Source of the DNA: Candidatus Bathyarchaeota archaeon
GTDB lineage: Archaea; Thermoproteota; Bathyarchaeia; Bathyarchaeales; Bathycorpusculaceae
Assembly (NCBI GenBank): GCA_020350385.1
Contig: CP070714.1
Span: 547,135 to 581,760 of the forward strand
Direction: 5' to 3'
DNA length: 34,626 nucleotides
Shown: positions 11,240 to 25,946 of the stretch, one piece after another
Layout: each line of letters starts with the position of its first letter
Numbering within the stretch: the first letter of the stretch is position 1
The notes under the pieces: model-generated
What the model saw: only the letters and a program-made list of their open reading frames with translations
What the model was told of the DNA's origin: nothing
The model's database searches: none
Program-made: the position numbers and the translations under genes

Positions 11240-11368
11240 TGGCGCCGGGGAAGGGATTCGAACCCCTGCGAGCCAAAGGCCCACTGGCTTACTTGTCTTT
11301 TGCATAGCCCTCTTCATTGCGCTATGGGGATCTCGAGGCCAGCGCGATAACCACTCCGCCACCCCGGC
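11240..11368 (-). tRNA. tRNA-Ser(CGA) with a 42-nt intron
   Basis: The acceptor stem GCCGGGG (11368-11362) pairs with CCCCGGC, then discriminator G and a genomically encoded CCA (11240-11242). The D arm, a long variable arm typical of tRNA-Ser (TGGGCC...GGCTCG) and the T arm with GGGGTTCGAATCCC are all present. The anticodon stem CTGGC/GCCAG encloses the loop CTCGAG+A, giving anticodon CGA at 11335-11333, which reads UCG. The stem halves are separated by an intron after position 37. Mature length with CCA is 87 nt. A TATA-like TTTTAGA lies at about 11391-11397. Confidence 0.92.
11290..11331 (-). other. tRNA intron at 37/38
   Basis: The 42-nt insert after G37 of tRNA-Ser is the canonical archaeal intron position. 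It contains an internal stem, CATAGC with GCTATG, consistent with the bulge-helix-bulge form cut by the archaeal splicing endonuclease. One A at each border makes the exact boundary ambiguous by one nucleotide. Confidence 0.85.
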
Positions 11369-12514: not shown

Positions 12515-13087
12515 ATGACAAATATGTGATTAGTATAGATTTAGGGGGTTAAGCAGAAATCCGAGTGGATAGGCACAGCAAAAAGGTAATGCTGTAAAAA
12601 CCGCTTTAGTCCATAGAGATAGCGAAGTTTTAGAAAACACAGCAAGGAATCTCTTGCGCGCATAACCATAGACGCGCCTTTGAGCCTCCCAAAAGAGGAC
12701 TAGTTTTTTAGAAAAAACAGAGAAATGATAAGAAGAATATACAGAGTGTTTCCTCCTAATCTCCCTGTCATGAAGAAACTCGCTTTACGAGCAATAAGAT
12801 TGAATAGGCTAATAGAGGAGAAGAGTTATAAAACAGTTGAAGTGCATCAACATCAACCCGAAAAGCCCTGAAAATACCATTAGAAGATTGGAATGTAATC
12901 CAAGAGATCTTAAATCCTTGGACTGAAAGGAGAACTAGAAACGCACCCTTTGGCTAGGCATGAAACCGACGCAGTTACAGCTGCCTTAACACCAGTTCTC
13001 CACCTGAAAAGTCAAACTTAGAGGATAGGTGATAACGAGAAGGGTTACACAACATTTCAAAGAAGAGAGACTGGAGACCCCAAGTAG
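12515..13087 (+). pseudogene. Decayed DUF429-like (RNase H-fold nuclease type) gene
   Basis: Pieces in changing frames spell a recognisable protein in order: KYVISIDLGG (12520 on), LSRNPSG, TALVHRDSEVLENT, TIDAPLSLPKED, then REMIRRIYRVFPPNLPVMKK and LALRAIRLNRLIEEKSYKTV, then LGLKGELETHPLARHETDAV, TAALTPVLHLKSQT and IGDNEKG. This matches the order of the DUF429 family as I remember it. Stops at 12550-12552, 12570-12572, 12701-12703, 12869-12871 and 13019-13021, plus several frame changes, show it is dead. Its tail overlaps an apparent N-terminal extension of DP1 (13029-13088), which is therefore not real DP1 coding sequence. Confidence 0.7.
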
Positions 13088-13088
13088 C

Positions 13089-14642
13089 ATGAGTGAAAGA
13101 GAAAAACTTCAAAAAGCCGTTGAAACAACGATTGCAGCAGGATACCAATTAAACAGCGAGGCGTTTGAATTTTTGTACAAAGCTGCTGCTACGGATGACC
13201 CAACCGCGTTAATGAATAAAGCGCTACAAAAAATAGAAGAATTACGAATGAAACCATTGTTCATCGACAGAAGCTTGTTGGAAATGGTGCTCAAACAACC
13301 AGAAACCATAGAAGAAGGACAAGTTCAACCCCAGGAAAAAAGCTTGGAGTCGCCACAGCAATATTTGACTCAAGGGAAAGACTTTTTCCACCCTTACGCA
13401 AAGGAGGTAGAAGCAAACATTAATGTGATAGAGGACCCCACAAACAAGCTCAGTTCCAACGGAACAATCGAAGAATATCTTCACTACTTTAAAGACAGAT
13501 TTAAACGAATTGAACGCTTGCTAAGACAAAGAATTGATGTTAAAGCCGCAACTCCGATATTAGAAGCGTTAAAATCGCCAGCCAAAACAAAACTGAAGAT
13601 AATCTGCATGGTGACTGAAAAACGAGAATCAAAACGGAATATAATTTTAAGAGTTGAAGACCCACAAGCACGTGCCACTATTCTAGTTGCCCACAACGCG
13701 CCAGAAAAACTACATAAAAAAGTCCAGCTGCTTCTTCCTGACCAAGTCGTATGTTTAGCTGTGGTAAAAACAAGAAGTACTCTTTTCCTAGCTGAGGACA
13801 TAATTTTTCCAGAAGTAGGCGAGAAACCTCGGCGTAGAGCTCCGGAACCCGTTTACGCGGTGCTCACTTCAGACATGCATGTTGGCAGTACAAAGTTCAA
13901 CAGAGAGGCTTTTAACCGTTTCATTTTATGGCTTAATGGCAAGTACGGAACCGGCAGAATGAAGGAAATGGCCGGTCACGTAAAATACGTTTTAGTTGCA
14001 GGCGACATAGTTGATGGCATTGGAGTTTACCCCAATCAAGTGGAGGAACTAGTAATAAAAGATGTACACAAACAGTACATGCTTGCCGCAAAACTGATTG
14101 AACAAATCCCAGACTACGTTGAAGTCATAATTTCGCCTGGAAACCATGACGCCTCGAGGAAAGCGTTACCTCAACCAGCGATATCGGAAGACTTTCTTAT
14201 AACTCTTCAAGAGTCTAGAAGAGTGCTGTCCCTTGGCGATCCCTGTTTGATAAGCCTTCACAATGTGGAGGTTTTGATGTACCATGGTCGCAGTCTGGAC
14301 GACATAATAGCCACCGCGCCCAGCTTGGACCACGAACACCCTGAGAAAGCCATGAAACTGCTTCTACAAAGTCGTCATTTAGCACCTTTATACGGCGGCA
14401 AAACGATGTTGTCGCCGGAAAATCGGGATTTGCTTGTGATAGAGCGAGTTCCAGACGTTTTTCATGCTGGTCACGTCCATGTAGTGGGCTGTTGTAACTA
14501 TCGGGGGGTATTAATTGTAAATTCGGGCGGCTGGCAAGAGCAAACAGAGTATATGCAAAAGCTCGGGTTGATTCCAACACCTGGAAAAGTGCCAGTGGTG
14601 AACTTACAAACACTAGAAACCACGATTCTTTCGTTCATTTAA
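13089..14642 (+). CDS. polB: DNA polymerase D small subunit DP1 (exonuclease subunit)
   Basis: The 517-aa subunit of the archaeal replicative polymerase PolD provides the Mre11-like 3'-5' proofreading exonuclease. From the chosen ATG, it has an OB-fold region at about 165-240, then phosphoesterase motifs SDMHVG (261-266), AGDIVDG (304-310), GNHD (351-354), MYHGR (398-402) and AGHVHVVG (460-467), all with expected His and Asp residues. I start at ATG 13089 because the frame upstream lies in the tail of the DUF429 pseudogene. GGAG lies about 11 nt upstream. It converges on orc1/cdc6 and lies beside the putative origin, as replication genes often do in archaea. Confidence 0.95.
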   Translation: MSEREKLQKAVETTIAAGYQLNSEAFEFLYKAAATDDPTALMNKALQKIEELRMKPLFIDRSLLEMVLKQPETIEEGQVQPQEKSLESPQQYLTQGKDFFHPYAKEVEANINVIEDPTNKLSSNGTIEEYLHYFKDRFKRIERLLRQRIDVKAATPILEALKSPAKTKLKIICMVTEKRESKRNIILRVEDPQARATILVAHNAPEKLHKKVQLLLPDQVVCLAVVKTRSTLFLAEDIIFPEVGEKPRRRAPEPVYAVLTSDMHVGSTKFNREAFNRFILWLNGKYGTGRMKEMAGHVKYVLVAGDIVDGIGVYPNQVEELVIKDVHKQYMLAAKLIEQIPDYVEVIISPGNHDASRKALPQPAISEDFLITLQESRRVLSLGDPCLISLHNVEVLMYHGRSLDDIIATAPSLDHEHPEKAMKLLLQSRHLAPLYGGKTMLSPENRDLLVIERVPDVFHAGHVHVVGCCNYRGVLIVNSGGWQEQTEYMQKLGLIPTPGKVPVVNLQTLETTILSFI

Positions 14643-14825: not shown

Positions 14826-16091
14826 TCAACTCTTGCTTTTTGCCTTTTTTGAGGAAAGTTTGTTTATAAGCAAGCGCCCTATTCTGCAATCATTTCCAAA
14901 AACATCCTTAATTAATGTACGGGATATTTCCAGCCTTATCTTCTTCGTGCGGCCGTAACGCCCCATACTCACCACCTTCGCGTTTAAAATGCCCATTGAA
15001 TCAAGCTCATTAACCAAGGTGCCCAGACGTCGTTGTGTAAGAAGTCCAGTTCCTAATTCACCACAGAGTTCGTTGTAAACATCGTATATCTCCCCGGTGG
15101 TAGCGTTCGACTTGTTCAAGCTATAAACGCTTAAAACTACTAACTTAGAATGCAGAGTTAGGTTCTTAAGGGCTTCCACAACTCTATTATGTTCAATGTG
15201 TCTTTCAGCCTCTCTAACATGTTCTTCCGTGATTGTTTTTTCCCCTTGGCGCTCGGCAACTTCCCCGGCCACACGTAATAAATCTAAAGCACGGCGGGCA
15301 TCTCCATGTTCCGCAGCGGCTAAAGCAGAGCAGATATTCAAAGCAGCTTCGGAGAGAGACCCTTCATGAAAGGATAGTTTTGAACGCTCAAGAAGAATAT
15401 TGTGCAATTCACTTGCATCATACGGTCTGAAGACCAGCTCTTCCTCGCTGAGAGAACTGAAAACCCGGGAATCAAGAAGTTCCTTCAATCGAAGATCGTT
15501 TGAAATGCCGATGATTGACACTTTGCTTTTACTCAGGGTTTCATTTATTCTGGTTAATTCGTAAAGAAGCCTGTCGCCGCGATTTTTAATTAAAGCATCT
15601 ACCTCATCCAAAACCACAATGAGATTTATTCTTGATGCCTCTAAACCTCTTCGAAATCTATCGAAAACTTCATCTACGGATAAACCAGTGAAAGGCACCG
15701 GCACTCCCACGTTTTGGCTGAGGCTTGCAAAGACGCGGTATTCGGAGCCTGTCATCCGGCAGTTCACGTAGGAAAACTTGACTAATGCATTATACTCTTT
15801 TGCTTTGGACTCCAAGTGACTTAGCACATATTTAGTTACAGCAGTCTTTCCAGTGCCAGTGTTCCCATAAATGAAAATATTGGAACACCGTGCATCCTTC
15901 AGAACTGGTGCGACTGTTGCGCCCAGAAGCCGTATTTGGTCCTCTCTATGAGGCAGTTTTTCAGGAATATAGTCGTGTCGTAAAACCTCTCGGTCTTTGA
16001 AAAGTTGAGCACTGTTCACGAAATTTTCGAAGACATCATCAAGAATTTTTGTATTTCCCATTATAGTCCCTGCTGTTTTAAGAGGCACCAT
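14826..16091 (-). CDS. cdc6: Orc1/Cdc6 replication initiator
   Basis: The AAA+ origin-binding protein is 421 aa. It shows LRHDYIPEKLPHREDQI (38-54), Walker A GNTGTGKT (76-83), Walker B VVLDEVD (159-165), sensor 1 in IIGISND (about 194-200), sensor 2 in HGDARRALDLL, and a C-terminal winged helix (about 310-400, TGEIYDVYNELC and LVNELDSMGIL) that contacts ORB DNA. Start choice: the ATG at 16091 lies close to a TATA box (about 16121-16129) and would be nearly leaderless; an ATG at 16061 has a weak AGGGA upstream. It faces the AT-rich origin candidate and converges with DP1. Confidence 0.95.
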   Translation of the reverse strand: MVPLKTAGTIMGNTKILDDVFENFVNSAQLFKDREVLRHDYIPEKLPHREDQIRLLGATVAPVLKDARCSNIFIYGNTGTGKTAVTKYVLSHLESKAKEYNALVKFSYVNCRMTGSEYRVFASLSQNVGVPVPFTGLSVDEVFDRFRRGLEASRINLIVVLDEVDALIKNRGDRLLYELTRINETLSKSKVSIIGISNDLRLKELLDSRVFSSLSEEELVFRPYDASELHNILLERSKLSFHEGSLSEAALNICSALAAAEHGDARRALDLLRVAGEVAERQGEKTITEEHVREAERHIEHNRVVEALKNLTLHSKLVVLSVYSLNKSNATTGEIYDVYNELCGELGTGLLTQRRLGTLVNELDSMGILNAKVVSMGRYGRTKKIRLEISRTLIKDVFGNDCRIGRLLINKLSSKKAKSKS

Positions 16092-16117
16092 CGTTATTTC
16101 GAGTTGAGCAGATAAAC

Positions 16118-16131
16118 TATACAGTATAAAA
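16118..16131 (-). promoter_or_regulatory. TATA box of orc1/cdc6
   Basis: GTTTTTTATACTGT on the minus strand lies about 30 nt before the ATG at 16091, predicting a very short leader. It sits at the edge of the origin, so initiator binding to the origin could also control this promoter (inference). Confidence 0.5.
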
Positions 16132-16204
16132 AACTAGTTTTGAAGCACAATAATCCTAAAAGATAATGAGACTTAATGACAATATTTGATTAAATAGGGA
16201 CAGG

Positions 16205-16231
16205 CACACACCCAAAGGTTTCCACTGGAAA
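16205..16231 (-). repeat. ORB-like element 1
   Basis: A perfect dyad TTTCCACTGGAAA at 16219-16231 is preceded on the plus strand by CACACACCCAAAGG. Read on the minus strand this is the dyad followed by CCTTTGGGTGTG, matching the ORB dyad plus G-string. It is the best copy of the three. The G-string points away from the AT-rich core. Confidence 0.75.
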
Positions 16232-16390
16232 TATAATTAGGTAAAAAAATAATTTGATTTCCTTTTAATAGGAAATATACTCTGATAGGTTAGATCGACT
16301 ATAACTATAATAATAATTGTTGTTAAAATTTTTAGATACTTATTCTGGGAAAATTTTTACAACTCCTATAATTATCTTTTTATTCTTTCT
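16232..16390. other. AT-rich candidate unwinding element
   Basis: About 160 bp of almost pure A and T with runs such as AATAATAATTG and AAAATTTTTA, flanked by outward-pointing ORB-like elements. It contains a loose TTTCC/GGAAA inverted repeat at about 16258-16275. This is the expected position for the duplex unwinding element. Confidence 0.6.
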
Positions 16391-16413
16391 TTCGACAGGA
16401 AATAAAGGGGTGT
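16391..16413 (+). repeat. ORB-like element 2
   Basis: TTCGACAGGAAATAAAGGGG followed by TGT: a weakened dyad (TTCxxxxxGAA) with a very good G-string AAAGGGGTGT, in the opposite orientation to element 1. Confidence 0.65.
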
Positions 16414-16653
16414 CCGTCTCTGATGAAATTCTTTACCTGTTCAATGGTACAGGAACTATTACTTAGTTTATTCCTTTCTCTAGAAAAACAGCTGCTTTAC
16501 TATATTTCTAATTTTGGAGCGTTTCCTTTTTCTTGTTTTACTGTTCTTCCTTCACTTTTTTGTGAACATCATGTGAAATTGCATTAAAATTGTTGCTTAC
16601 TGTCGTTCTTTTCTGTAAAATTACCCTCTTCTTGTTTTTTTCCTGTGAATGAG

Positions 16654-16678
16654 GCGCCCCTAGGCTTCTACTGGAAAT
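16654..16678 (-). repeat. ORB-like element 3
   Basis: On the minus strand TTTCCAGTAGAAGCCTAGGG followed by GCG: a slightly imperfect dyad with a G-string, same orientation as element 1. Confidence 0.65.
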
Positions 16679-16874
16679 GTGAAATCAGATAGCAACGATA
16701 ATTTTCAGACTATTTCAAATTATTGTGAAGCTTGTAATCTTAAATAAGCTGCTTTTCTTAGCTTTTTACTCTTTTTCGAGCTTCTCCTGTCTTTTAGCTT
16801 TTTTATCCTTCACCATAACAGCTATAAGTTGTGAAGTGTAAAGCTTGTGGACATCAACTAAGGTTTATACTGGA

Positions 16875-17306
16875 ATGCCCGCTCGAAAAATGCGCGTAGA
16901 ACTGTTCGATAATGAAGGCAATCGATACACGATAGCCTTCGAGGGTCAAATTACTCGAGATAAGGCTCTCCGCCTGTTAGATCTCGTAGAATTGTTAGGT
17001 GGTATGCCGGGCGAAGGAGCAGCTCATGGAGCTGGTAACGTCTTGGCACGTAATAATCTTTCACGATTCGAAAAGGTTCGTTTAATTATTAAAAACAGTT
17101 TTCCGCTAATTTGGTTCTCTTCAAAGGATGTTCAGTCCGTTTATGAACAGGAGCTTAGGGAACGAATTGGCCTTAGTACCGTTTCAACTTACCTCGCGAG
17201 AATGGTAAATAGAGAGCTGCTTTTGAGAACTGGAAGGGCTAACAACTTGAAATACAAAGTTGCACCGGATATCCCCCAAGCCGCAATAAAGCAGCAGCTG
17301 AAATAG
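16875..17306 (+). CDS. Origin-adjacent winged-helix-type protein
   Basis: From the ATG at 16875 this is 143 aa. The N-terminal 45 residues look like a small beta-rich domain (MRVELFDNEGNRYTIAFEG) followed by a helix (TRDKALRLLDLVELLGG). The C-terminal half (about 60-135) reads like a winged helix: FEKVRLIIKNSFPLIWFSSK, VSTYLARMVNRELLLRTG. The frame also runs upstream to a TTG at 16845, but a TATA-like GCTATAAGTT (16821-16830) favours 16875. A degenerate ORB-like GGTTTATACTGGAA (16862-16875) touches the start. Sulfolobus WhiP is a winged-helix protein beside an origin; this one is much smaller, so the parallel is positional only. Confidence 0.7.
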   Translation: MPARKMRVELFDNEGNRYTIAFEGQITRDKALRLLDLVELLGGMPGEGAAHGAGNVLARNNLSRFEKVRLIIKNSFPLIWFSSKDVQSVYEQELRERIGLSTVSTYLARMVNRELLLRTGRANNLKYKVAPDIPQAAIKQQLK

Positions 17307-17464: not shown

Positions 17465-18178
17465 TCACGTTTGCTCACTTTCAGCCTTTTTCAAGAGTTT
17501 TGCCATTTCTTTCTTAACGCTGTACTTGAAAGGGATTTTACCTGTCTCTCTTTCCACATAGCCCTTTTCATACAGTTTCTTCATAAGTCTTGCAGTGTGC
17601 TCTCTGCTGAGATGTACTATATCTTTAATTTCAGGTGCAGTTTTAGCTCCTTCCATCGAAAGTAATTCCAAAACCGTCACTTCCGTATCAGTTAGTGCAG
17701 CCATTGCTTTGTCTCTTTTTATGGGTATTACCGGCTCGCTTTTCCCTTCAGGTTCCAAAAAGAACTTTTGTGCCTGCTCTTCTAACCTAGAGATTCTTGC
17801 TTTTAGAGTTTCATGTGACGCCTCGGCATCCCGCGTCTTATCATCAACCTTTGTTACCCTGGCTACCATACCTGTACTGTTTTCATTGATGGCTTTGATT
17901 TGGCTTTCAAAAGACGTTATTTTCTTTTCTATTTTTCCCACCCGTTTAAGCCCAGCGTCTGCCTTGGACGTGATGCCTTCCACTCTATACGCCATTATCT
18001 CTAGCTTGTCAACTTCTCTTTTAAGTTCTCTATTGAAACTCAGGACGATATCTTCGACCGCTTCTTTTGCTTTCTCGTATTCTTTTTTGGCCTTGCGAAT
18101 TTGTTTGTAATACTCGACTGAAGCGCCTATGGTTGCAGCTAGTAGAACGCCTATGAGTACTAGCAGAAAGTCAGTCAT
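17465..18178 (-). CDS. Membrane-anchored coiled-coil protein with C-terminal HTH
   Basis: This 237-aa protein has three parts: an N-terminal membrane helix (about 3-21, FLLVLIGVLLAATIGASVEY), a long heptad-like coiled coil (about 25-140, rich in Lys, Glu and Ile), and a MarR/ArsR-like winged helix (about 160-235, LTDTEVTVLELLSMEGAKTA, LSREHTARLMKKLYEKGYVE). I use the ATG at 18178 with AAGTGA upstream; a GTG at 18187 is possible. A DNA-binding domain held at the membrane by a coiled coil suggests a membrane-tethered regulator or nucleoid anchor (inference). Its promoter region carries copies of the TGTGA-type motif, so it may regulate itself. Confidence 0.75.
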   Translation of the reverse strand: MTDFLLVLIGVLLAATIGASVEYYKQIRKAKKEYEKAKEAVEDIVLSFNRELKREVDKLEIMAYRVEGITSKADAGLKRVGKIEKKITSFESQIKAINENSTGMVARVTKVDDKTRDAEASHETLKARISRLEEQAQKFFLEPEGKSEPVIPIKRDKAMAALTDTEVTVLELLSMEGAKTAPEIKDIVHLSREHTARLMKKLYEKGYVERETGKIPFKYSVKKEMAKLLKKAESEQT

Positions 18179-18187
18179 AATAGTCAC

Positions 18188-22408: not shown

Positions 22409-22529
22409 TAGTTTGCCCTTTTTGAATTGAATCCGCCGAAGTGGCTTCTTCGCTGGGGGCTTTTTTCGATTTTTATGTTAGAAAGCCAAAATAAATGCGT
22501 TGTTAACAATGTTTGGAGGGAACCGCTAC
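22409..22529 (+). promoter_or_regulatory. Spacer with possible terminator and DP2 leader
   Basis: A GAAG/CTTC hairpin (about 22438-22448) is followed by GGGGGCTTTTTTCG (22455-22468), which may end the GGGP synthase transcript. Further on, an AAAATAAATG stretch (about 22488-22497) and GGAGGG (22515-22520) prepare translation of DP2. Confidence 0.35.
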
Positions 22530-25500
22530 TTGAACAGCAAAATGAGCGCAGACTATCAAAATTACGTCGAAACCATGGAGACCCAGCTCAACCAATTGTA
22601 TGCCATAAGTGAGAGCGCCAGGTCAAGAGGGCTTGACCCGTCGTTAAAGACAGAATGTATCATTGCAAAAGACATAGCTGACCTCGTAGAGGGGCTTGTA
22701 GGACCAAAAGAGGTTGCGGTTAGCATCCGTGAATTAAGTGCGAAACTGCAACGGGAAGAAATAGCCTTTAAAGTTGCCGAAGAAATTATTTACGGCAAAT
22801 TCGGGCACATGGAACCAGAAACCGCGGCGGAACAAGCTATACGCACTGCCCTCGCAATATTCACTGAGGGTCTCACAGCAGCTCCAATCCAAGGAGTAGC
22901 TCAAGTAAAAATAAAGGCTAACTTTGATCGAACTAGGTACCTTGCCATATACTTTGCAGGACCAATAAGGGCTGCTGGAGGAACAGATCAAGCGTTGACT
23001 CTTGTTGTTGGAGATTTTGTGCGCCGCCTGCTGGGACTTGACCGATACAAGCCCACGACAGAAGAAATCTCCCGTTTTCTTGAAGAACTAAGATTATATG
23101 AACGCTCAGTGGGGCGCTTCCAATATCATGTTTCAGATGAGGAGGCCAAAAAAGCGCTTCATTGGCTTCCCGTCGAGGTCACTGGCACAGAATCTGATCC
23201 AATAGAAGTTTCTTCCTTCAGAAATCTTCAAAGGGTAGAGACCAACCGTGTAAGAGGCGGAGCCTTGAGAGTCGTTAACGACGGTGTTGTAGGGCGCGCT
23301 CCCAAAGTTCTGAATATTATAGAAAAGCTTGGCTTTCAAGGCTGGGATTGGCTTAGAGAATTTCGCAAGAAATCAGAAAAGAAGTCTGCTGGATTCATGG
23401 ACGACGTAATCGCTGGACGCCCCATTTTCTCCTTCCCTTCCAGACGCGGAGGCTTCAGGCTTAGGTATGGTCGATCACGAAACACAGGGCTTTCAGCGGT
23501 GGGAATTCACCCAGCCACAATGCTTGTGGTGGAACGTTTTCTGGCTGCTGGCACGCAAATGCGCTTAGAACTCCCTGGGAAAGGCGGTGTCGTAGTGCCG
23601 GTGGACGTTCTCGAGCCCTCCATTGTTTTATTGAAGGATGGCTCAGTAGTTCGTGTTTCCCTTGAAAACTTTAAACGCGTAAAGGGCAAGATTGAGAAAA
23701 TTCTGTTTTTAGGCGACATTCTGATCAGTTTCGGCGATTTCCTTTACACTAGCAAAACGCTTTCTCCTTCGGGGTATGTTGAAGAATGGTGGGCAAAAGA
23801 CTTAAAGAAGGCCCTCACGGAAAGATTCGGCGGAAACATCTTAAAAGCCGCTGAAACCGTCAGGCTTTCGGAGGGAAAACTAGGTGCTTTTTTAGAGGCC
23901 CCCTTTTATAACAAGCCTACTGTCAAAGAAGCAATACTGCTGTCCATACACTTTAATGTGCCTATGCATCCGAATTTCACATTCTTCTGGTCAAACCTGT
24001 CGTCAATTCAAGAGGTTGTGATGTTGCGAAAATGGCTTTCAGACGCCGAAGTAATGCTTGACGCTGATACTATTCACAAAATTGTTGGAACAATGGAACC
24101 GAACGTGGCTCAAGCTTTGAGAAAAATTTTTGCGCCGCACAGGCTTTTAGACGGCAAGATCGCTCTGGAAAGAGAAGATGCATGCGCTTTTGCTTTCTGT
24201 CTTGGCTATGGAACTTCTAGAATTGTAAAAGATAGCCAAGCGGAATCCGTGTTGAAGGCGGTTAGTTTCCTTTCCGGCGTGGAGGTCAAGGAGAAGGCGC
24301 CTACGTTTGTGGGTGCGCGTATGGGTCGGCCTGAAAAGGCGAAGAGAAGAGAGATGAAGCCTCTGGTTCACGTTCTTTTTCCAGTAAGCTTAGCTGGAGG
24401 CTCTCGCCGAAATCTTTTGGAAGCGGCAAAAAAAGGATTGGTGTTCGTTGATGTTGTCAAGCGCGAGTGTCCTAACTGCAAGACTTTCACTTTCAAGGTG
24501 AAGTGCGCTGAGTGTGGATGGGAAACGATCGCTCAGAAGAGTTGTCCGCGTTGTGGTAGGACTTTAAAGATTAACCGTTGCCCAACTTGTAAATCTGGCG
24601 CTGTGGCGTACCAGAGGCAGGCAATTAACGTTAAGGACTTGATTGAAGATGCGTGCCGTTTGCTCGGTGTTTCTGTTCCAAAAATCTTGAAGGGAGTTAA
24701 AGGATTAACTAATGAGGATAAGACCCCTGAAATTATCGAAAAGGGTATTTTGCGAGCAAAACACGATTTATCAGTTTACAAGGATGGAACAATTCGATTC
24801 GACACCACTAATACACCCTTAACGCATTTTAAGCCTTCTGAAGTCGAAGTAACCGTTGAAAAGCTTAGGCAACTCGGTTACTCCTACGACGCATACGGTG
24901 CATCTTTAACTAATCCCAACCAGATATGTGAACTTAAAATTCAAGACGTCGTCATCCCACGGAAAGCAGCAAAGTACTTCGTTCAGGTCTCACACTTCAT
25001 AGATGAACTCCTAGCCAAAGTCTACAAACTTCCAAGTTACTACAACATCAAAAGCCCCCATGACCTAGTTGGACACTTGATTATGGGCTTGGCTCCCCAC
25101 ACCTGCGTCAGCATCTTGGGACGCATCGTTGGATTTACTGATCTCAATGTTTGCTACGCCCATCCTATCTGGCACTCAGCCAAACGGCGAGACTGCGATG
25201 GCGATGAGGACACTATTATGCTAGCGTTGGATATGCTTCTTAACTTTTCTCGTAGGTACCTGCCAGCACAGATAGGCGGAATAATGGATGCTCCTTTACT
25301 GCTGATTCCTTTTGTTAACACCAAGGAAGTACAGCGGCAAGCTCATGATTTTGACGTTAGTGGAGCGTACCCTCTTGAATTTTACGAAAAGACTTTGGAA
25401 AGAGCCGAAGCTAAGCAAGTCAGCTCCATTATGGACCTTGTCAGCCACAGGCTTGGAACTGAAGGGCAGTTTGAAGGGTTCAAATTTACCACGCCTGCTT

Positions 25501-25946
25501 CAGACATAAACCTCGGGAATTCAGTAAGCTCTTACAAGCAATTTAAGTCGATGATTGAAAAATTAAACGCGCAACTGGAGTTAGGAGAAAAAATTGATGC
25601 TGTGGATGTGAGACACGTCGCTTTGAAGGTTTTGACAACTCATTTCCTTCGAGATATTGCTGGCAACTTACGTGCTTTCTCAACACAGGGTTTTAGGTGC
25701 AAATCATGTAACCAGCGTTTCCGCCGTTTACCTTTGCGCGGTAAGTGTCCCTTCTGTGGTGGATCCTTAACTCTAACGGTTTATCGCGGCGGTATAGAAA
25801 AGTATCTTGAAGCAGCCCAACAGTTGATTGATAAGTATGGGTTACCAAATTATTACGCTCAGCGAATTGCATTGATAAAAGACGAAATCACATCCCTATT
25901 CGATAATAAAAAGCCAAAGCAAGTCAGCCTTGTAGACTTCACCTAA
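22530..25946 (+). CDS. polC: DNA polymerase D large subunit DP2 (catalytic)
   Basis: The 1138-aa catalytic subunit of PolD has a double-psi beta-barrel active site of the RNA polymerase type. Conserved parts include IYFAGPIRAAGGTDQAL, FPSRRGGFRLRYGRSRNTG, the zinc modules ECPNCKTF...CAECGWE...CPRCGR...CPTCKSG (about 645-690), the catalytic RRDCDGDEDT (D888, D890, D892), and a late zinc finger (RCKSCNQRF...CPFCGG). The C terminus, KQVSLVDFT, fits a PCNA-interacting box (QxxLxxF). No intein is seen at the usual site. GGAGGG lies 9 nt before the TTG at 22530, so I start there rather than at TTG 22500 or ATG 22542. Confidence 0.96.
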   Translation: MNSKMSADYQNYVETMETQLNQLYAISESARSRGLDPSLKTECIIAKDIADLVEGLVGPKEVAVSIRELSAKLQREEIAFKVAEEIIYGKFGHMEPETAAEQAIRTALAIFTEGLTAAPIQGVAQVKIKANFDRTRYLAIYFAGPIRAAGGTDQALTLVVGDFVRRLLGLDRYKPTTEEISRFLEELRLYERSVGRFQYHVSDEEAKKALHWLPVEVTGTESDPIEVSSFRNLQRVETNRVRGGALRVVNDGVVGRAPKVLNIIEKLGFQGWDWLREFRKKSEKKSAGFMDDVIAGRPIFSFPSRRGGFRLRYGRSRNTGLSAVGIHPATMLVVERFLAAGTQMRLELPGKGGVVVPVDVLEPSIVLLKDGSVVRVSLENFKRVKGKIEKILFLGDILISFGDFLYTSKTLSPSGYVEEWWAKDLKKALTERFGGNILKAAETVRLSEGKLGAFLEAPFYNKPTVKEAILLSIHFNVPMHPNFTFFWSNLSSIQEVVMLRKWLSDAEVMLDADTIHKIVGTMEPNVAQALRKIFAPHRLLDGKIALEREDACAFAFCLGYGTSRIVKDSQAESVLKAVSFLSGVEVKEKAPTFVGARMGRPEKAKRREMKPLVHVLFPVSLAGGSRRNLLEAAKKGLVFVDVVKRECPNCKTFTFKVKCAECGWETIAQKSCPRCGRTLKINRCPTCKSGAVAYQRQAINVKDLIEDACRLLGVSVPKILKGVKGLTNEDKTPEIIEKGILRAKHDLSVYKDGTIRFDTTNTPLTHFKPSEVEVTVEKLRQLGYSYDAYGASLTNPNQICELKIQDVVIPRKAAKYFVQVSHFIDELLAKVYKLPSYYNIKSPHDLVGHLIMGLAPHTCVSILGRIVGFTDLNVCYAHPIWHSAKRRDCDGDEDTIMLALDMLLNFSRRYLPAQIGGIMDAPLLLIPFVNTKEVQRQAHDFDVSGAYPLEFYEKTLERAEAKQVSSIMDLVSHRLGTEGQFEGFKFTTPASDINLGNSVSSYKQFKSMIEKLNAQLELGEKIDAVDVRHVALKVLTTHFLRDIAGNLRAFSTQGFRCKSCNQRFRRLPLRGKCPFCGGSLTLTVYRGGIEKYLEAAQQLIDKYGLPNYYAQRIALIKDEITSLFDNKKPKQVSLVDFT

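Follow-up and report, generated by a model that had tools for sequence, protein, structure and literature searches.

In Sulfolobus, the origin oriC1 consists of an inverted pair of ORBs around an AT-rich element, beside the Orc1-1 gene and with a third ORB outside the pair (PMC12141716). The ORB motif common to archaea has been given as TCCA[CG]T[TG]GAAA[TC][GA]AAGGGGT (Ori-Finder 2, PMC4164010). In Nitrosopumilus maritimus a single origin has been mapped, according to the work cited in PMC4010727.

The locus described here belongs to a Candidatus Bathyarchaeota archaeon and lies in a window of 34,626 nucleotides, the whole stretch of DNA that was analysed, within a genome assembled as a single contig of 868,956 bp that is 76% complete. 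By Orc1, the closest named relatives are mostly Candidatus Bathyarchaeota MAGs, with identity of up to 87%. The region between positions 16092 and 16874 has clustered ORBs, an adjacent Orc1-1 gene, an AT-rich element inside inverted ORBs, and conservation in relatives, features by which oriC1-type origins are recognized, and on this basis it is very probably the chromosomal replication origin of this archaeon, of oriC1 type and dependent on Orc1-1. Its resemblance to Sulfolobus oriC1 (ORB2-DUE-ORB3) extends to the inverted ORBs, the AT-rich core, the outer ORB, and a short conserved motif in the core (PMC12141716), but the core spans about 150 bp by itself as compared to 130 bp for the whole ORB3-DUE-ORB2 stretch in Sulfolobus, and its motif is AAATATACTCT, whereas the Sulfolobus ucm reads ATTATACAAAC in a published oligonucleotide. 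An outer zone of TTMACA repeats (TTCACA or TTAACA) and a divergent winged-helix gene go beyond the Sulfolobus oriC1 layout. The oriC of Pyrococcus is similar in that it is a lone origin with ORBs, located immediately upstream of cdc6 (PMC4010727), and as described it is set apart from the present locus by the extra repeat zone and winged-helix gene found here.

Genes surrounding the locus

No convincing gene was found within 16092-16874, which is bounded by orc1/cdc6 on one side and on the other by a gene on the plus strand whose conserved coding start is at about 16875. An initial sequence-only reading of this DNA had named Orc1/Cdc6 and DP1 as the neighbors of a putative origin, and Pfam matches bear out both assignments:

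14826 to 16091, minus strand: orc1/cdc6, Orc1-1 type (Pfam Cdc6_lid, 1e-25; Cdc6_C, 1e-24)
13029 to 14642, plus strand: DP1, the small subunit of DNA polymerase D, adjoining orc1 (Pfam DNA_pol_E_B, 3e-17)
22500 to 25946, plus strand: DP2, the large subunit of DNA polymerase D, 5 kb beyond (Pfam, E = 9.7e-132)

The best PDB relative of the window's Orc1 is 2qby_A, Cdc6 homolog 1 (E = 1.4e-110). Conserved coding begins at the second ATG (16061) and the matches of many relatives start at residue 11, so this ATG is probably the true start of orc1. DP1 is convergent with orc1 and adjoins it in 39 of 41 relatives. In Pyrococcus, cdc6 is located near DP1 and DP2. Elsewhere in the window, an Rfam tRNA match on the minus strand at 11243-11368 spans 126 bases with a score of 47.5 bits and is not reported by ARAGORN, which suggests an intron-containing tRNA.

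ORB sites and the AT-rich core

Between these genes the following elements were recognized:

16097 to 16109, minus strand: GCTCAACTCGAAA, a degenerate ORB-like dyad at the promoter or start of orc1, its position conserved in relatives
16204 to 16235, minus strand: ORB A, with dyad TTTCCAGTGGAAA at 16219-16231 and a G-string facing orc1 (model R1, whole genome, E = 4.9e-5)
16236 to 16386, no strand: AT-rich core between inverted ORBs A and B, about 150 bp, 80% A+T against a window mean of 57%
16273 to 16283, plus strand: block AAATATACTCT within the core, conserved according to the conservation profile (on the orc1 strand it reads AGAGTATATTT)
16387 to 16419, plus strand: ORB B, the inverted partner (TTTCGACAGGAAATAAAGGGGTGTC), dyad at 16390-16402, G-string away from orc1 (R1, E = 6.4e-5)
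16651 to 16679, minus strand: ORB C, the outer site, oriented like A, dyad at 16665-16677 (R1, E = 2.4e-4)

The three ORB-like sites of dyad plus G-string that had been proposed for this gene-free region are thus all present in the orientations described, and the two said to point outward from an AT-rich core are ORB A and ORB B. The exact sequence TTTCCANTGGAAA occurs once in the 869-kb genome, at ORB A. A relaxed dyad pattern allowing 2 mismatches has 130 matches there, which means that a dyad is not specific unless a G-string accompanies it. Because the loose dyad is too common to prove anything alone, an ORB sequence model was built from relatives. This model, R1, has 36 positions and derives from 57 ORBs of relatives with the window left out; its E-values are rough because of how it was constructed, which does not affect the ranking. 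At E ≤ 10 on the whole genome R1 returned exactly 3 matches, ORBs A, B, and C, and nothing elsewhere, and in 12 relatives every match with E < 0.02 was directly upstream of orc1-1. The Bathyarchaeal ORB agrees with the common archaeal motif, the one departure being an A that is frequent in the second half. A fourth ORB-like match at 16856-16877, which came from a simple repeat search, was rejected as it lacks a G-string and shows no conservation.

ORB counts were made over 61 loci, mostly of the same family. ORB A was found in 55 of these, at −152 to −103 from the orc1 start, ORB B in 52, and ORB C in 56; 45 loci have all 3, and in 16 one or more failed the strict filter. The A-B distance is 174 ± 6 bp and the B-C distance 258 ± 18 bp over these loci, and the order, orientation, and spacing of the sites are kept in relatives, in line with the conservation that the sequence-only reading would lead one to expect. 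Several further families within the order share this layout. That all 3 sites match by chance in an AT-rich sequence, as the 130 relaxed matches might suggest, is refuted by the specificity of the independent model and by this deep conservation, and its probability can be regarded as negligible. One of the 61 loci, L044, comes from a distant record with the title Euryarchaeota and has an orc1 49% identical, 3 good ORBs upstream, no winged-helix gene found, and no excess of TTMACA.

In relatives the core averages 78% A+T, compared to 60% for the loci, and it is a candidate duplex unwinding element. Inside it, GAGTATA/TATACTC is found in 44 of 60 family loci, where 0.07 would be expected per locus. 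By its position, the AAATATACTCT block is a possible counterpart of the Sulfolobus ucm. The block adjoins a short palindrome, TTTCCTATTAAAAGGAAA.

Skew and the position of the probable origin

Sites of this kind beside orc1 could instead be operators by which Orc1 controls its own gene, with replication starting elsewhere. The conserved ORB-like dyad at the orc1 start fits such control and is a possible autoregulatory site, although a weak one, having no match by model R1. Three strong ORBs lying 100 to 590 bp upstream are more than autoregulation calls for, as are an inverted pair, a core of 80% A+T, and a fixed spacing of 174 bp, and the genome contains no second cluster of ORBs.

Skew was assessed from twenty 20-kb stretches sampled per genome, with steps ranked among the 20 positions. 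In G048, a relative with a single contig of 2.15 Mb, the steps in GC skew and in gene strand at orc1-1 both rank first of 20, which speaks against replication starting elsewhere. The GC skew step at orc1-1 also ranks first of 20 in a second relative, G006 (gene strand rank 4), and second of 20 in a third, G285, which has no gene-strand step (rank 16). The window's own genome, a 76%-complete assembly, has no skew inflection at the locus (ranks 9 and 11 of 20), as operators alone would predict. The ranks therefore support an origin in relatives and are silent in the window's genome; the inflection anticipated by the sequence-only reading failed to appear in its own contig (rank 9 of 20) and was found in the 3 relatives (GC ranks 1, 1, and 2 of 20). 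Taken with the arrangement of the sites, we consider a purely autoregulatory role very unlikely.

A second Orc1/Cdc6 paralog, orc1-2, is encoded at G000:C1:155486-156604. Upstream of orc1-2 in 20 relatives there were no ORBs, no repeats, and no conserved intergenic block like that of orc1-1, and a second origin at orc1-2 was rejected on these grounds; in the window's genome about 100 bases just upstream of orc1-2 are masked as N.

In an origin at 16092-16874, Orc1-1 from the neighboring gene would bind ORB A and ORB B on either side of the AT-rich core. By analogy to Sulfolobus oriC1, the bound pair would guide MCM helicase to the core, and the duplex would open there. The ORB-like dyad at the start of orc1 and ORB C would probably serve as additional Orc1 sites, modulating initiation as well as the expression of orc1.

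A second class of repeats and a winged-helix gene

The outer half of the origin also holds short sites of a different class, TTCACA (TTAACA in other lineages), and leads up to a divergently transcribed gene:

16561 to 16566, minus strand: TTCACA repeat 1, conserved column block
16572 to 16577, minus strand: TTCACA repeat 2, conserved column block
16644 to 16649, minus strand: TTCACA repeat 3, just past the G-string of ORB C, conserved columns
16678 to 16683, minus strand: TTCACA repeat 4, abutting ORB C, not a conserved column
16724 to 16729, minus strand: TTCACA repeat 5, conserved columns
16830 to 16835, minus strand: TTCACA repeat 6, near the winged-helix gene promoter, conserved columns
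16875 to 17306, plus strand: unnamed protein of 143 amino acids with an N-terminal beta-beta-helix part and a winged helix at the C-terminus, its gene transcribed away from orc1 on the far side of the origin

Column-wise conservation places the TTCACA blocks upstream of orc1, between about −760 and −455, where their position is conserved. Relatives have a mean of 6.3 TTCACA per 800 bp, a 12-fold excess over the 0.50 in flanking DNA. The window has 6 copies, all on one strand, where its own genome would predict 0.53 (Poisson, approximately 2e-5), and no stretch of equal size in 400 kb sampled from this genome has more than 5. Close TTCACA pairs occur 4 times in the genome, 2 of them at the origin. 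TTCACA is also carried by families f2, f4, f6, f7, f22, f26, and f38, and is replaced by TTAACA in the Bathyarchaeal family f9 and the ammonia-oxidizing families f18 and f48 (5 to 11 copies vs. about 1 expected). Archaeal AmoA was found in f18, f48, and f45, and f45 has 10 TTAACA upstream of orc1. Families f11 and f15 are marginal for the repeats.

The gene for the 143-amino acid protein was located by tblastn at the matching place in family loci and is found in 187 of 299 genomes of the phylum, with one match per genome among the matches listed. It is the divergent neighbor of orc1 in f2, f4, f6, f7, f9, f11, f15, f18, f22, f26, f38, and f48. In genomes G062 and G230, the gene and orc1 are near opposite ends of a single contig, as would be expected if the two are linked across a circular junction. 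Comparative sequence evidence thus indicates that the second repeat set and the winged-helix gene recur at orc1 across a large part of the phylum.

For the window's copy no Pfam or NCBIfam family scored above the cut-off, with only weak Pfam matches to winged helices, and sequence comparison with the PDB gave no convincing chain. A structure model of moderate confidence (mean pLDDT 72) retrieved only generic winged-helix regulators in a fold search of the PDB, the best at E = 6e-3. Adjoining this gene, a minus-strand gene at 17465-18187 encodes an apparent N-terminal membrane segment, a long coiled coil, and a C-terminal MarR/TrmB-like winged helix.

Several described origins have partial likenesses to this arrangement. 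At Sulfolobus oriC3 a winged-helix gene, that of WhiP, adjoins the origin (PMC4010727, PMC4164010), a likeness of gene position; here, however, the winged-helix gene shares its origin with orc1 and ORBs. The Sulfolobus ucm is also a second, non-Orc1 element in an archaeal origin, but its own binder, UBP, has beta-hairpins and binds inside the core, while the repeats here are many, are outside the core, and have a winged-helix protein as their candidate partner. The downstream ORB cluster of Haloarcula hispanica oriC2 likewise consists of extra repeats, with a proposed regulatory role (PMC4010727), but those extras are ORBs and TTMACA is a different motif.

What may bind the repeats

With conserved copies in the promoter of the winged-helix gene, one of them paired with an inverted GGTGAA, the TTCACA repeats might simply be operators of this divergent gene, unrelated to replication. 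The copies, however, extend as far as about 300 bp away from that gene and lie on both sides of ORB C. Operators should also travel with their gene, and in f23, f27, and f37, where the winged-helix gene is away from orc1, the region upstream of orc1 keeps 5 to 6 TTCACA (a count reached in 0 of 200 shuffles) and there are only 0 to 1 copies upstream of the moved gene. We therefore consider it unlikely that the repeats serve only as operators of this gene.

Gene and repeats were also compared for co-occurrence family by family, uncorrected for phylogeny. L265, L266, and L044, which have orc1-1 and ORBs and in which no winged-helix gene was found, have 0 to 1 repeat copies, as expected by chance. 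The link between protein and repeats is imperfect, since f19 and f41 have a clear winged-helix match and lack the repeats at orc1. These 2 families favor a reading in which another protein binds the repeats, such as Orc1-1, Orc1-2, or a nucleoid protein like Sulfolobus UBP, and the linkage to the winged-helix gene has some other cause. Covariation is compatible with this as well. Three columns of the winged-helix protein covary with the TTCACA/TTAACA difference, vs. 2.9 expected, which is chance level. T102 in the recognition helix and G120 in the wing change in both TTAACA clades, and the TTCACA genome L060 has A102; covariation was accordingly dropped as evidence for binding. Against a different binder, the repeat does not resemble the ORB and is absent from genomes that have ORBs but lack the winged-helix gene. 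Nor is Orc1-2 general: the ammonia oxidizers G062, G230, and G244 match Orc1 once each, and all have TTAACA arrays at the origin. Binding by another protein is a real possibility that we rate as somewhat improbable.

The winged-helix protein as the binder of TTMACA is the best single guess, although one that falls short of even odds. On this reading it is the likeliest protein to bind TTCACA; as an accessory factor at the origin it would either promote initiation or hold it back, and it would probably control its own promoter as well. Tentatively, and again at less than an even chance, we propose that the 143-amino acid protein serves as a second factor for origin recognition, long established in Bathyarchaeia and ammonia-oxidizing archaea, which binds TTMACA and works with Orc1-1, the repeat having switched between TTCACA and TTAACA at least 2 times. 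The sequence-only reading of the locus as an origin is supported, but was incomplete in that it missed the TTCACA repeats, the conserved core block, and the winged-helix gene.

Implications for archaeal replication

The open-access literature, to which the search was mostly confined, contained no report of a Bathyarchaeal origin, of these repeats, or of the winged-helix gene. An origin is hereby defined for a large and essentially uncultured class of archaea, at the confidence given above, and it could be used for autonomously replicating plasmids and enable peak-to-trough estimates of growth from metagenomes. The conserved protein and the repeats are shared with origins of ammonia-oxidizing archaea, and since some of these are in culture, the idea of a second factor can be tested at the bench. 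If it is true, origins in this branch of the archaea would be two-initiator systems, or would combine an initiator with a gatekeeper.
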